Positions 16,584-50,737 of a DNA stretch of 64,000 nucleotides are shown one piece after another. The notes beneath the pieces are model-generated. The model had not been told where the DNA came from. It made no database searches and saw nothing but the letters and a program-made list of their open reading frames with translations. Location: positions 186,001-250,000 of the forward strand of contig NZ_JAAMFJ010000002.1 of NCBI RefSeq assembly GCF_018437235.1, read 5' to 3'. Positions within the stretch are counted from its first letter, which is position 1; each line of letters begins with the position of its first letter. The position numbers and the translations under genes are program-made. Source of the stretch: Fructobacillus papyrifericola. Lineage in GTDB: Bacteria > Bacillota > Bacilli > Lactobacillales > Lactobacillaceae.

Positions 16584-16840
16584 AAATTAAAACGTTGAAC
16601 AGGAGAGTAACTTCCAATCCATTCAAAGAGAGCTGACGGCTGCTGAAAAGTCAGTAATGGAACGAAAGCGAACCACACCTGCGAGTGTGCGTGTGAATCA
16701 AGTAGCCCGCATCGACTAGTTGCCGTTACCCAACTAAACGTGTAAACGTTTTGAGGTGTCAGGAGAAATCCTGTCACAACCATGAGGTGGGACCGCGAAC
16801 ATTCGCCCTCTAAGCATTGCTGCTTAGGGGGTTTTTTTAT
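16584..16840 (+). ncRNA. T-box riboswitch, probably tRNA-His responsive
   Basis: The conserved T-box AGGTGGGACCGCG is at 16785-16797, followed by a terminator at 16805-16838. Upstream lie a stem-I-like fold (GTAAC near 16607 with GTTAC near 16728; TCCATT/AATGGA enclosing AGAGAG and CTGAC/GTCAG) and a stem III-like hairpin at 16757-16778. The antiterminator bulge is TGGG, so its variable base is G and pairs with a C discriminator; in bacteria C73 is characteristic of tRNA-His. A CAC triplet followed by A is at 16674-16676 in the expected specifier region. Together these suggest induction by uncharged tRNA-His. The specifier is inferred, the T-box itself is clear. Confidence 0.85.
16805..16838 (+). 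terminator. T-box regulatory terminator
   Basis: CCCTCTAAGCA-TTGC-TGCTTAGGGGG followed by TTTTTTT. It is mutually exclusive with the T-box antiterminator. Confidence 0.9.
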
Positions 16841-16991: not shown

Positions 16992-17822
16992 ATGAAAAAA
17001 AGCAATCGCAAGAAAACCATTATTAACGGGCTCTTTGCCTTAATCATTGTCGCCCTGGTGGCCGGTCTGACCTACACCTTCGCCGGACCGGGCAAGGGGG
17101 AAAACAAGGACCAATGGAAGAAGATTGAACAGAAGAAGACCATCACCATCGGACTTGATGACACCTTCGCCCCAATGGGCTTCCGTGATGCCAACGGGAA
17201 GATCGTCGGCTTTGATATTGACCTGGCAGACAAGGTCTTTGCAAACCTGGGCATCAAAGTCAACTGGCAACCCATCGACTGGTCCATGAAGGAAACCGAA
17301 TTAAAGACCGGTAAGATCGATGCCATCTGGAACGGCTACACCAAGACGGCAGAGCGTGCTAAAAAAGTCAACTTCTCGACTTCCTACCACAAGGCACCGA
17401 TCGCCCTGATTACCAAAAAGTCATCGGGCATCACCAAGTACTCGGACATGAAGGACAAGACCCTTGGCTTGCAAACGCAGTCCTCGGCAGAATCAGCGCT
17501 GGCTGACCAACCAAAAGTCTTAAAGCAGTACATCAAGAACCAGACGGCCGTGGGCTATGATACCTTCGATAAGGCCTTTACCGACTTGAACAACGACCGC
17601 ATCGACGGCATCTTGGTCGATGAAGACTACGCCCGCTACTTTATTAAGCAACAGGGAACGGCCGATAACTACAACATCATCACCGGTCAGTTCGACACCT
17701 CCGACTTTGTCGTTGGCTTCCGTAAGGGCGACAAGACCCTGCAAAAGAAGGTCAATGAGCAACTGGCCAAGTTGGAAAAGGACGGCTACATGAAGACCAT
17801 TGAAAACCGCTGGTTTGGCTAA
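16992..17822 (+). CDS. Amino-acid ABC transporter substrate-binding protein (probable histidine)
   Basis: 276-aa family 3 solute-binding protein. An N-terminal hydrophobic segment (about residues 11-31) acts as signal or anchor; no lipobox Cys is present. The mature domain begins ITIGLDDTFAPMGF and contains GFDIDLADKVFANLG and the ligand-site region WNGYTKTAERAKKVNFS. The T-box before it points to histidine, as in predicted HisXYZ-type importers of lactic acid bacteria, but no permease or ATPase follows; the next element is a terminator. It presumably shares membrane components encoded elsewhere. Confidence 0.9.
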   Translation: MKKSNRKKTIINGLFALIIVALVAGLTYTFAGPGKGENKDQWKKIEQKKTITIGLDDTFAPMGFRDANGKIVGFDIDLADKVFANLGIKVNWQPIDWSMKETELKTGKIDAIWNGYTKTAERAKKVNFSTSYHKAPIALITKKSSGITKYSDMKDKTLGLQTQSSAESALADQPKVLKQYIKNQTAVGYDTFDKAFTDLNNDRIDGILVDEDYARYFIKQQGTADNYNIITGQFDTSDFVVGFRKGDKTLQKKVNEQLAKLEKDGYMKTIENRWFG

Positions 17823-17852
17823 GACAGCAGCCGGCGAACAGATACGCAATTA

Positions 17853-47356: not shown

Positions 47357-47385
47357 TTGACAAAAAAATTACGCACCGGTACACT
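47357..47385 (+). promoter_or_regulatory. Promoter of the cysteine leader/ABC transporter operon
   Basis: -35 TTGACA (consensus), exactly 17 bp, -10 TACACT. Transcript start expected near 47392, 20 bases before the leader ATG. Confidence 0.85.
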
Positions 47386-47412
47386 AAAAACAGATTAAAA
47401 AGGAGAGTAACT

Positions 47413-47487
47413 ATGAACGCAAACACAATCAATGCCCAAATGAACATGATGACTCAAACGGTTTGCTGTTGTACACCGCTTATTTAG
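47413..47487 (+). CDS. 24-aa cysteine leader peptide
   Basis: An AAGGAGAG ribosome site seven bases before the ATG starts a 24-codon ORF ending V-C-C-C-T-P-L-I and a TAG stop. The three consecutive Cys codons (TGC TGT TGT, 47464-47472) lie five codons before the stop. The stop overlaps the first base of the GGGTGG antiterminator arm. Position, size, run of one amino acid and the following terminator are those of a classical attenuator leader peptide. No resemblance to a functional protein family. Confidence 0.85.
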   Translation: MNANTINAQMNMMTQTVCCCTPLI

Positions 47488-47565
47488 GGTGGCGTTTGTA
47501 GGTTAAAGACCACCCAATTCAAGTAGGGACCCTTTCTCTACTTGGGGGTGGTCTTTTCTTTTTGA
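47464..47565 (+). promoter_or_regulatory. Ribosome-mediated transcription attenuator responding to cysteine
   Basis: Arms: 1, around 47472-47479 (adjacent to the Cys codons); 2, GGGTGG at 47487-47492; 3, CCACCC at 47510-47515; 4, in GGGTGGTCTTT at 47546-47556. Pairing 2:3 is a perfect 6-bp antiterminator. Pairing 3:4 (AAAGACCACCC with GGGTGGTCTTT, 11 bp, plus inner CAAGTAG/CTACTTG) makes a terminator followed by TTTTCTTTTT. Arm 1 can pair imperfectly with arm 2. Ribosome stalling at the Cys codons would free arm 2 and allow read-through; a ribosome at the stop codon would cover arm 2 and allow termination. Confidence 0.8.
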
Positions 47566-47584
47566 GTAAATTAGGAGTACGAAA

Positions 47585-48379
47585 ATGAACAAAAAAATCG
47601 CAATTATTCTAGCAGGACTAATCGTTATCATCGGGGCTATCTTTGGAATCAGCAAGATGGCCTCATCACAAAAGGATGACACCACCATTAAGGCCGGTAC
47701 CTTTACCGTTGGTTTGGAAGGAACCTACGCGCCCTTCTCTTACCACGACGACAAGGGAAACTTGACCGGTTTCGAAGTTGAAATTGCCGAAGCCCTGGCT
47801 AAGAAAATGGACATGAAAGTCAACTTCGTCCAATCAAAGTGGGATTCCTTAATCGCCGGAATCAACGCTAAGCGTTACGACGCCGTCATCAACAACATCG
47901 GAATCACCGACGATCGGAAGAAGAACTACCGGATGTCAACGCCTTACCTTTACCCCAAAGCCGCTTTGATTCGTCGCACCGGTGATACGTCATTAAATAA
48001 GCTCTCCGATATCAAGGGGAAGACGATGGCCCAATCCGTAACGTCAAACTACGGAAAACGAGCCCAAGCGGAAGGTGCCAACATCAAGGCCGTTGCAGGT
48101 ATCATCGAGGCCATGAACCTGTTGACAACCAACCGTGCCGACGGTTCCTTAAACGATATGGGTGCCTTTGAAAACTGGAAGCAGTCAAACCCCGATGCCG
48201 ATGTCGAAGCCGTTGACGTCTCAAAGGACATGGGCTCAACACCTGACGGTGTCTTGATGAACAAGGATAACAAGAAGCTTCAAGAAAAGGTCAACAAGGC
48301 CATGAAGGAAATTCGCGAAGACGGTACCTTGACCAAGCTGTCAAAGAAGTACTTCAACAAGGACTTGACCAAGGAATAA
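47585..48379 (+). CDS. Amino-acid ABC transporter substrate-binding protein (probable cystine/cysteine)
   Basis: 264-aa family 3 solute-binding protein. N-terminal hydrophobic segment about residues 5-22, no lipobox Cys. The mature domain starts FTVGLEGTYAPFSYHDDKGNLTGFEVEIAEALAK, with KRYDAVINNIGITDDRKKNY at the ligand site. The G-x-E-G-T-Y-A-P-F start and following motifs resemble TcyA/FliY-type cystine binders. Preceded by the cysteine attenuator, followed by permease and ATPase of the same importer. AGGAG site. The protein contains no cysteine. Confidence 0.92.
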   Translation: MNKKIAIILAGLIVIIGAIFGISKMASSQKDDTTIKAGTFTVGLEGTYAPFSYHDDKGNLTGFEVEIAEALAKKMDMKVNFVQSKWDSLIAGINAKRYDAVINNIGITDDRKKNYRMSTPYLYPKAALIRRTGDTSLNKLSDIKGKTMAQSVTSNYGKRAQAEGANIKAVAGIIEAMNLLTTNRADGSLNDMGAFENWKQSNPDADVEAVDVSKDMGSTPDGVLMNKDNKKLQEKVNKAMKEIREDGTLTKLSKKYFNKDLTKE

Positions 48380-48408: not shown

Positions 48409-49107
48409 ATGACAGACTTTTTCAACCTGGCAGTTAAATACCTGCCCGAACTTTTCATTGCAGCAATCAAATACACCATTCCACTGACAGCGATTTCCTT
48501 CTTTTTCGGATTGATCTTCGCCTCTTTGACCGCCCTGATTCGCGTGTCAAAGCTTCCGCAAAACGAATGGGCGGCCGCCTTTTTACAAATCGTGAAGTGG
48601 TTGGCCAACGCCTACGTCTGGTTCTTCCGCTCCACGCCGTTAATCGTTCAACTCTTTATCGTCTTCTACGGTTTACCAAACGCCCACATCGCCTTCTTCC
48701 AGTCGGCCTGGGTATCGGCCATCACGGTCTTCTCCTTGAATACCGGGGCCTACGCGTCGGAGACGATCCGCGCATCGATTTCTTCTGTTCCAGAAGTCCA
48801 AAAGCAGGCGGCCGAATCGCTTGGCATGACCCGTGCACAAGTCTATTTGAACGTCGTCTTGCCACAGGCGGCGCGGATTTCCATTCCGCCCCTATCAAAC
48901 TCTTTGATTGGCCTGTTAAAGGACACTTCCCTGGCTTCCGTCATCACCATCGTGGAAATTTTTTACCTGTCCCAGCAAATCGCTGCGGCCAACTATAAGG
49001 TTTTGTCGATGTACATTCTGGTTGCCTTGGTCTACGCCTTCTTCACGTCAATTCTGTCAATCGGTCAGCACTACCTAGAAAAGTACACATCGAGGTTTGC
49101 CCAATGA
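48409..49107 (+). CDS. Amino-acid ABC transporter permease (probable cystine/cysteine)
   Basis: 232 aa with about five membrane segments, His/Glu/Gln/Arg (HisM/GlnP) family. N-terminal PLTAISFFFGLIFASL, FFRSTPLIVQLFIVFYGLP and the EAA loop SVPEVQKQAAESLGMTRAQVYLNVVLPQA. Overlaps the ATPase start by four bases. TcyB-like by context. Contains no cysteine. Confidence 0.93.
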   Translation: MTDFFNLAVKYLPELFIAAIKYTIPLTAISFFFGLIFASLTALIRVSKLPQNEWAAAFLQIVKWLANAYVWFFRSTPLIVQLFIVFYGLPNAHIAFFQSAWVSAITVFSLNTGAYASETIRASISSVPEVQKQAAESLGMTRAQVYLNVVLPQAARISIPPLSNSLIGLLKDTSLASVITIVEIFYLSQQIAAANYKVLSMYILVALVYAFFTSILSIGQHYLEKYTSRFAQ

Positions 49108-49838
49108 TTCAAGTAAAAAATCTCAGTAAGCACTACCCTGACAAAGTCGCCTTAGACGACATCTCGGTTGACTTTCCCGCCGAAGAAACGACGGCCATCG
49201 TCGGTCCTTCGGGATCTGGTAAGTCAACACTCTTGCAGGCCTTAAACCTCCTGGAGCGGCCCGATCAAGGAATTCTGACCATTGATGACATCAGCCTCGA
49301 TTTGGCAAAGCCTTTGACCAGCAGCCAAATCCTTCAGATTCGGCAAAAGACGGCCATGGTCTTTCAAGAAAAGGCCCTCTTCACTCACTTGAACGTGATG
49401 AAGAACCTGACCGAAGGCCCAATCAAGGTCCAAAAGAAGTCCAAGCAGGAAGCCGAAGCAAAGGCCCAGGCGTTGCTTGAACAGTTTGACATGACGGAAT
49501 TGGCCAACCGCTACCCCTACCAACTTTCAGGCGGGCAGCAACAGCGCGTGGCCATTCTGCGTGCTTTGGCCATGGAACCCAAGTACTTGCTCTTAGATGA
49601 GCCAACCTCAGCCCTGGATCCGGAATTGGAAGCACAAGTTCTCCGTGTCTTGAAGGACTTGGCCAAAAAGGACGTGTCCATGATTATCGTCACGCACAAC
49701 ATGGCTTTTGCCGAACAGGTGGCCGACCAGATCATCTTTGTTGATAACGGTTCGATTGGCTATGCTGGACCAACCGATGGCTTCTTTCATTCGAAGGAAG
49801 CTCGCATTAAGCAATTCTTAGGAGCAATGTCCTTCTAA
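49104..49838 (+). CDS. Amino-acid ABC transporter ATP-binding protein (probable cystine/cysteine)
   Basis: 244 aa. Walker [11 protein letters not shown]-loop [11 protein letters not shown], signature [15 protein letters not shown], Walker [13 protein letters not shown]-loop VTHNMAFA. Completes a three-gene importer in the order binding protein-permease-ATPase. Its stop shares a base with the nuclease start (TAATG). Contains no cysteine. Confidence 0.95.
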
Positions 49839-50737
49839 TGGCAAAACGACAAACGAATCAAAAACGATTTACCCAAACCGCCACAATGGTTCTCGCTCTC
49901 GTGGCGGTTTTTGCCTTTCAAGCCGTCAAAAATGAAGGGGTGCATAAGCAAGGACCAAGCGAACAAAAACAGTCAAAGGTCCTACAGTCAGCGAAGAAGG
50001 CCAACCGTTCGGCCAATGTCACGGCAACATCTGCTTCTGATCAAGACCTCTTAAACATCAAGTGGGACGGCACCCTGGATGGCGACATTGTTCACTTGAA
50101 CAATAACCAGGCGACTTTTTCAGACGAGGAGTTGAAACAAAGCTTTCCAGGCAATAAGAGCAAGCTCAATCCAGTTGACGGCCTAGCGCTTTCCAACCTA
50201 GACAGCCTCGGTCGTTCCGGCCAAGCCAACTTTGTCGCTTCCAAGAAGGCCATGGACAAAGTCACTAAACGACCAAGCCAGATTCCAAAGAGCGTCCGCC
50301 CCTCTGGCTGGAACCAAAACGACCACTTCAACGGAACGTTCTGGGTCGGCGGCAGCCACAACAACCCCAAAGTCAGCCTGGGTGGCAGCAAGCAGGCCCT
50401 GTGGAACAAGTCCCACATTGTCGGCTATCAGTTCTTTGGCATGGCCACGATGGTCACTGAAAACATGACCACTGGCACTCGTGTCGAAAACGCCTATCCT
50501 GGCCAGCTGGTGCCAGAAGACGACATTCTTTATGCGTTAAAGGAGCACCCAAACATCACCATTCGTGGTCAGGTCACACCGGTTTATTCCGGTAACGAAC
50601 TAGTGCCACGCGGGGTCCACTACATGGCCAAATCGGTCGAGGACAACGGGGCAACGCTGAACTTGAACTACTGGATCTTCAACGTTCAACCAGGCATCAC
50701 CATCAATTATCAAACCGGTGCAGCAACCGTCGATTAA
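49838..50737 (+). CDS. Secreted/anchored DNA/RNA non-specific endonuclease
   Basis: 299 aa. N-terminal membrane/signal segment (about residues 12-28), a linker rich in Lys/Ser/Gln, then an EndA-like nuclease domain with catalytic His in LWNKSHIVGYQFFG, TGTRVENAYPG and QVTPVYSGNELVPRGVHYMA. The family normally carries N-[RK]-S-H. It probably degrades extracellular nucleic acids. Surprisingly it is translationally coupled to the transporter ATPase and so would be under the same cysteine attenuator. No cysteine in the sequence. Confidence 0.88.
   Translation: MAKRQTNQKRFTQTATMVLALVAVFAFQAVKNEGVHKQGPSEQKQSKVLQSAKKANRSANVTATSASDQDLLNIKWDGTLDGDIVHLNNNQATFSDEELKQSFPGNKSKLNPVDGLALSNLDSLGRSGQANFVASKKAMDKVTKRPSQIPKSVRPSGWNQNDHFNGTFWVGGSHNNPKVSLGGSKQALWNKSHIVGYQFFGMATMVTENMTTGTRVENAYPGQLVPEDDILYALKEHPNITIRGQVTPVYSGNELVPRGVHYMAKSVEDNGATLNLNYWIFNVQPGITINYQTGAATVD

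Follow-up and report, generated by a model that had tools for sequence, protein, structure and literature searches.

A putative cysteine-codon leader-peptide attenuator upstream of a cystine-type ABC importer in Fructobacillus and related Lactobacillaceae

A short open reading frame with a run of cysteine codons, followed by an antiterminator arm and an intrinsic terminator, precedes a cystine-type ABC importer operon in Fructobacillus papyrifericola and very probably acts as a cysteine-specific, ribosome-mediated transcription attenuator of the trp type that responds to charged tRNA-Cys and controls the importer. The leader itself is real and more than a product of chance, and the attenuator reading draws on its sequence, on its conservation, on the coevolution of its pairing arms and on its gene context. 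An initial annotation had proposed a trp/his-type layout, and this proposal is supported by a conserved Cys codon and by coevolving arms in relatives. Coordinates (Table 1) refer to the window, which is the whole 64,000-nt stretch of DNA that was analysed.

Table 1. Features of the leader and the importer operon within the window
Feature	Position	Strand	Basis
Promoter: TTGACA (47357–47362), 17-nt spacer, TACACT (47380–47385)	47357–47385	+	10/12 consensus
Shine–Dalgarno site of leader ORF, AAGGAGAG	47400–47407	+	Direct sequence reading
Leader ORF MNANTINAQMNMMTQTVCCCTPLI, ATG at 47413, 24 codons, stop TAG at 47485–47487	47413–47487	+	Sequence reading, conservation
Hairpin P1 (CGGU..ACCG) around Cys codons; possible role in pausing, as protector or as first terminator	47459–47478	+	Folds, swaps
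Control codons TGC TGT TGT (Cys18–Cys20)	47464–47472	+	Sequence, codon counts, conservation
T-rich stretch behind P1	47480–47485	+	TTATTT in the window; TTTTTT in 10/10 other rows of alignment A3
Antiterminator 5' arm GGGTGG, overlapping the leader stop codon	47487–47492	+	Sequence, folds, partner swaps
Intrinsic terminator: outer stem 47505–47515/47546–47556, inner stem, T-run to 47563	47505–47563	+	Sequence, folding
Common arm CCACCC, 3' in the antiterminator and 5' in the terminator	47510–47515	+	Sequence, partner swaps
Shine–Dalgarno AGGAG of the importer's first gene	47573–47577	+	Sequence
Substrate-binding protein (SBP), SBP_bac_3 (family 3), cystine-type by best model	47585–48379	+	Below cut-off
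ABC permease, best model cystine ABC transporter permease	48409–49107	+	Below cut-off
ABC ATPase, best model L-cystine TcyN	49104–49838	+	Below cut-off
DNA/RNA non-specific endonuclease; its start overlaps the stop of the ATPase gene	49838–50737	+	Kept in 10/10 named Fructobacillus loci

Every coordinate given by the initial annotation agrees with direct reading of the sequence, including those of the consensus promoter and of the 24-codon frame that follows a Shine–Dalgarno (SD) site and ends V-C-C-C-T-P-L-I-stop. By its layout the frame should be translatable, as an SD site and an ATG at short spacing lie downstream of a promoter whose TTGACA is unchanged in all 11 aligned Fructobacillus leaders. 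The claimed pairings are also present: GGGTGG is perfectly complementary to CCACCC, and the 11-bp terminator stem formed by AAAGACCACCC (47505–47515) with GGGTGGTCTTT (47546–47556) is perfectly paired and precedes a T-run. Predicted folding of the leader RNA is 4.75 SD more stable than that of dinucleotide shuffles over 47395–47568 and 4.14 SD more stable over 47475–47568, with none of 200 shuffles as good in either case. Cysteine accounts for only 45 of 16,847 codons (0.27%) in the window when its 47 non-overlapping open reading frames of at least 200 codons are taken as genes, and a Cys-Cys pair is unique to this leader among the 23 SD-led ATG frames of 8–40 codons on both strands.

The mechanism that we infer would begin with transcription from the promoter, a ribosome starting on the leader behind RNA polymerase. 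When Cys-tRNA-Cys is scarce, this ribosome would stall at TGC TGT TGT and leave the RNA past its leading edge free, so that GGGTGG could pair with CCACCC, no terminator would form and the importer genes would be transcribed. When Cys-tRNA-Cys is ample, the ribosome would attain the stop codon that overlaps GGGTGG and mask that arm; CCACCC would then pair with the later GGGTGG and transcription would end. P1, a third hairpin missing from the initial annotation, would form when the leader is untranslated, and in the other genera described below it would then sequester the antiterminator arm in the manner of the 1:2 hairpin of the trp leader.

The trp/his-type attenuators of enteric bacteria operate by ribosome-mediated transcription attenuation, and the present leader resembles them in its short frame with control codons, in its alternative hairpins (antiterminator, terminator and, in P1, a candidate protector) and in a stop codon set so that a terminating ribosome would mask the antiterminator arm. 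It differs in that Cys takes the place of Trp or His, often as one control codon, in that an importer rather than a biosynthetic operon lies downstream, and in that the control codons of Fructobacillus lie inside P1, which has a U-tract behind it.

A scan of named genomes gave 10 relatives of the window, all Fructobacillus, which places the window in that genus. The leader was found in all 13 Fructobacillus genomes searched, which comprise that of the window, those of the named loci L001–L010, G100 (L025/L100) and G001 (L029). Related leaders precede the orthologous gene in 16 genomes of four other genera, here g39 (2 of 2 genomes), g6 (2 of 2), g16 (7 of 19) and g18 (5 of 28). The seven g16 bearers are those with an SBP of 69% identity or more to the g16 query; four further g16 genomes have a remote SBP only and no leader (L136–L139), and eight have no match. 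Among more distant homologues the leader was not found in 12 upstream regions (L088–L099), where an SD-led Cys frame in L097 was set aside as it appears to lie within coding sequence, nor was such a leader seen by eye in L039–L046. Seven SBP paralogues of the window's own genome (L012–L018) were scanned in one orientation only.

Twenty-nine leaders, 13 from Fructobacillus and 16 from the other genera, were picked for having the layout, and all 29 carry a Cys codon in frame after an SD-led ATG. The key position is Cys-Cys-Cys in seven, Cys-Cys in one and a single Cys codon in 21. Conservation of the Cys run, a check proposed in the initial annotation, thus holds for the codon and not for the run of three, which is missing from 22 of the 29. 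Seven Fructobacillus peptides end in VCCC[ATP]PL[FI]-stop, and in this clade the leader is 24 codons long in 7/7 despite differing N-terminal halves; five others have a single key Cys at the corresponding place (VKCYLPLF-stop, VMCQLPFF-stop, VMCTLPFF-stop), with a second Cys near the start of the peptide in L009. The peptide of G001, MFVSQSATTCC-stop, is divergent and stops directly after its Cys-Cys. Outside Fructobacillus the Cys is codon 11 in 14 leaders and codon 13 in two, and in 26 of 26 listed leaders the Cys codon is TGC or TGT. From these sequences, control by a single key Cys codon appears sufficient and a Cys run unneeded.

The Fructobacillus peptides share more than their cysteine, as 12 of the 13 end in V-x-C-x-x-P-[LF]-[FI]-stop. 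Such a pattern might be expected of an arrest-peptide switch of the TnaC or ErmCL type, in which the nascent peptide would sense free cysteine or another small molecule within the ribosome tunnel and stall the ribosome, the same hairpins serving as read-out. The pattern can be partly explained otherwise, however, because its codons take part in P1 pairing: bases 1–2 of the Val codon belong to a GGU whose partner, ACC, contains bases 1–2 of the Pro codon, and the last codons of the peptide form the U-tract. Arrest peptides depend for their function on peptide sequence, whereas across genera conservation is limited to Met1 and Cys, the remaining residues and the stop position being variable in the 16 non-Fructobacillus leaders. 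Sensing of the codon through tRNA-Cys is therefore favoured, and an arrest peptide seems improbable here.

The terminator and the antiterminator are mutually exclusive by one common arm in every lineage, and the letters of the arms differ. As read by us from folds and swap windows, the antiterminator arms are GGGUGG:CCACCC and GGGUGG:CCGCCC in Fructobacillus, GGGCG:CGCCC in g6, GGCGC:GCGCC or GGCGC:GCGCU in g16 and g39, and UGCUC:GGGCA and UGCUUGUG:CACAAGCA in g18. The arms are misaligned between genera in alignment A2, and partner swaps were therefore used instead of a count of pairs. With swap windows chosen after the folds had been viewed, only 9 of 40,320 permutations of eight groups, the identity included, pair the antiterminator arms as well as or better than the true arrangement; this set holds 27 of the 29 leaders and leaves out L007, which is near-identical to L006, and L130, whose terminator is damaged. 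The arms of each lineage thus pair better within that lineage than after swapping, which bears out the arm complementarity that the initial annotation had asked of relatives. The swap is weaker leader by leader: 6 of 27 leaders pair better with their own partner than with any foreign one, and foreign partners are equally good in 10 of 23 cases for L008, 9 of 25 for L032 and for L033, and 9 of 26 for L029. Within Fructobacillus alone, the covariation of the antiterminator falls short of significance, with 189 of 500 shuffles scoring as high, and L009 and L025 break one pair each. The Fructobacillus terminator is paired in 66 of 66 cells, with one A-U to G-C double change. L130 (genome G251) retains an intact leader frame and has lost the 5' arm of its terminator, and is therefore predicted to be a derepressed natural mutant.

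The counterparts of P1 coevolve across genera as well, with 6 of 5,040 group permutations, the identity included, equal or better among 26 of the 29 leaders (L007, L029 and L130 left out). Within Fructobacillus none of 500 shuffles attains the covariation score or the paired percentage of P1, and 99 of 500 attain its number of doubly changed pairs; the GGU:ACC pairing is invariant in 11 rows. P1 overlaps the antiterminator arm region in 16/16 non-Fructobacillus leaders, and does not overlap GGGTGG in Fructobacillus. As the Cys codons lie within the Fructobacillus P1 and a U-tract comes next, we infer that this hairpin may serve as a pause or as an extra, first terminator. In the window P1 is weak, at a predicted -6.0 kcal/mol, and is followed by TTATTT. 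A simple terminator pattern is matched by P1 of L006 and L008, in a scan that failed to detect the main terminator of L006. The window P1 does not match this pattern, and the view that all Fructobacillus P1 hairpins are clear terminators was abandoned. In L030–L038, L130–L135 and L140–L142, UAUUUUGACG or a similar U-run followed by G lies directly after P1, a stretch that resembles the consensus pause site of RNA polymerase and that pairs inside a long antiterminator in several folds of non-Fructobacillus leaders.

A ribosome with a given codon in its A site covers about 12–13 nt downstream from the first base of that codon. With this edge assumed at +13, and with positions counted in nt from the Cys codon, the 5' strand of P1 begins at +6 to +9 in 16/16 non-Fructobacillus leaders, that is, under a stalled ribosome. 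RNA folded from +13 forms the antiterminator in 24 of 25 leaders with a readable fold, 12 of them outside Fructobacillus; L030–L032 were left out and L130, lacking a terminator, gives no fold. The one exception, L009, was folded over a shortened stretch. Across 11 Fructobacillus leaders, GGG is found at +20 or +23 and the stop codon at +18 or +21, and a ribosome at the stop would therefore mask the arm. By its geometry, the stop codon is placed where masking of the antiterminator arm would result. Constancy of the stop position, another point raised in the initial annotation, is borne out in so far as the stop overlaps the arm in these 11 leaders, and is not seen overall: in the 16 leaders of other genera the stop is at +21 in 10 and at +27 to +54 in six. 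The GGCGC of g16 and g39 starts at +10, and about 3 nt of this arm would therefore lie under a ribosome ending at +13.

These results also bear on another account of the locus, a plain intrinsic terminator with constitutive partial read-through at which the leader peptide sets only the basal level of expression. The terminator is indeed the best-supported element of the leader, but such an account has no explanation for the retained Cys codon, for the coevolution of the antiterminator and of P1, or for the conserved spacing, and it is very unlikely.

Firmicutes often employ CymR-type repressors or T-boxes, and it might thus be supposed that the sensor at this locus is a cysteine-responsive repressor or a small-molecule riboswitch and that the mini-ORF is incidental. 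In support, the genome has 16 T-box matches at E <= 0.001, three of them over the cut-off. At the leader, however, no Rfam family attains its threshold; the Cys is kept as a codon behind SD and ATG in 29/29 leaders, and arms that change between lineages still match. A separate sensor of this kind is accordingly very unlikely. At E <= 1, six loci gave two sub-threshold Rfam matches only, a Trp_leader match at 478–593 in L030, away from the leader, and a SNORA77 match in L035 that overlies the terminator. The T-box covariance model (RF00230) has no match at the leader, and its sole over-threshold match in the window is at 16586–16813. That T-box leader (117.7 bits) lies upstream of another amino-acid SBP gene near 17037–17831. 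If the cystine importer is under attenuator control, the question arises of why, in a genome with 16 T-box matches, it uses a leader peptide instead.

The target had been called an ABC amino-acid importer, and this can be narrowed: three subunits are encoded, and the best NCBIfam models of all three are cystine ABC components, each match falling under its equivalog cut-off. The SBP has its best sequence match among solved structures in Neisseria 2yln/3zsf, which we take to be an L-cystine receptor. Cystine is the putative substrate, assigned by similarity below equivalog cut-offs. The leader sits between a divergent metG upstream and this operon, and the order metG, leader, SBP, permease, ATPase, nuclease is kept in 10/10 named Fructobacillus loci. 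In the g6 and g16 loci examined metG likewise adjoins the operon; the g39 and g18 loci examined do not include it. The endonuclease would share the importer's control, and an endonuclease gene is also near the importer in L135.

A 17-base core motif, allowing one mismatch, gave matches in 20 of 397 genomes, of which nine (L060–L063, L070–L074) are the leader and 11 (L064–L069, L075–L079) were judged from their surroundings to be chance. The Fructobacillus pattern, at up to three mismatches, matched in 13/13 genomes, with the leader itself among the matches in 12; the leader of G001 was found by reading L029. A further 18 matches listed for this pattern, with two to three mismatches, were taken as chance without being read. 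Model R1 had matches in 163 of 397 genomes at E <= 0.01, and among the matches listed 16 reach 59 bits, all at this locus and 15 of them training sequences; three of the weaker matches, L183, L184 and L188 (at most 44.3 bits), look like ordinary terminators. In 395 genomes of the order, R1 at E <= 1e-6 gave four matches, namely three known leaders and L183, and nothing new. Model R2, run on the 397 genomes, gave 12 strong matches, all in Fructobacillus and 11 of them training sequences, and missed G001. Neither model has a strong match away from this locus, and because these searches used stricter filters, an absence of further copies means an absence of strong ones only.

Several attenuators described elsewhere offer points of comparison. 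By the title of the paper that reports them, polycysteine leaderless short ORFs of mycobacteria are cysteine-responsive operon attenuators (Canestrari et al. 2020, cited in PMC13236596 and PMC9094748), and to this extent they are alike in being Cys-codon short ORFs. The likeness is drawn from these mentions and concerns the ORFs; the mycobacterial frames are leaderless and belong to Actinobacteria, whereas the present ones are SD-led, belong to Lactobacillaceae and carry one to three Cys codons, with no three-Cys run in 22/29. The uORFC-8-2 motif upstream of cysS in Rhodobacterales also combines Cys codons with a terminator and is predicted to be a ribosome-mediated attenuator (PMC8632094); as described there, it has two tandem Cys codons, usually at positions 14–15, and differs in its alpha-proteobacterial hosts and in preceding a Cys-tRNA synthetase gene. 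Leader-peptide attenuators are found in Firmicutes too, as in the Rli60 ilv leader of Listeria, tested by mutations of its start codon, RBS and terminator (PMC5864092), and the His leader peptides of bacilli (PMC2965389). The former concerns branched-chain amino acids and the latter His, and the parts of these two papers available to us name no Cys-codon leader.

The initial annotation knew of no established description of this device in lactic acid bacteria, and our literature search, with many subscription papers outside its reach, likewise found no Cys leader peptide in Lactobacillales. Cys-codon attenuators have been published for mycobacteria and predicted for Rhodobacterales, and for the Lactobacillales version no published description was found. 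If the present reading is true, it places cysteine ribosome-mediated attenuation in lactic acid bacteria and implies that one rare codon may be enough as a control signal. The device would be remodelled between genera while its sensor codon stays constant, and would thus offer a natural series on how attenuator architecture changes.

A second form may exist in g18. The remaining 23 g18 genomes include 15 with a Cys-terminated short ORF ahead of a more distant importer gene (examples are MSLGMRC-stop, MNFRMRC-stop, MKTLMNRC-stop and ...GCCC-stop); two have the Cys near and not at the end of the ORF, and six have neither form. Loci with the Cys-terminal form include L143–L145, L149, L150, L152, L156, L157 and L160. 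As a lead only, suggested by folding models, these mini-ORFs might act by translational attenuation under the same signal, with stalling freeing the importer's ribosome-binding site. There is some reason, though short of an even chance, to suppose that Cys leaders are an old and fast-remodelled control of cystine uptake here in Lactobacillaceae, with one Cys-tRNA sensor and three outputs: single-Cys transcription attenuation in four genera, a protector turned first terminator inside the ORF in Fructobacillus, and translational attenuation in g18. The Cys-terminal g18 mini-ORFs have no clear terminator, and in several the SD region of the importer is paired with RNA from beyond the stop. Fifteen g18 leaders were folded with the RNA up to Cys+13 omitted, and the predicted accessibility of the importer SD showed little or no gain in L047, L159, L162 and L155. 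It rose from 0.18 to 0.91 in L157, from 0.33 to 0.92 in L160, and from 0.58 to 0.97 in L144 and L145, where a fold starting at the stop already gives 0.70–0.71.
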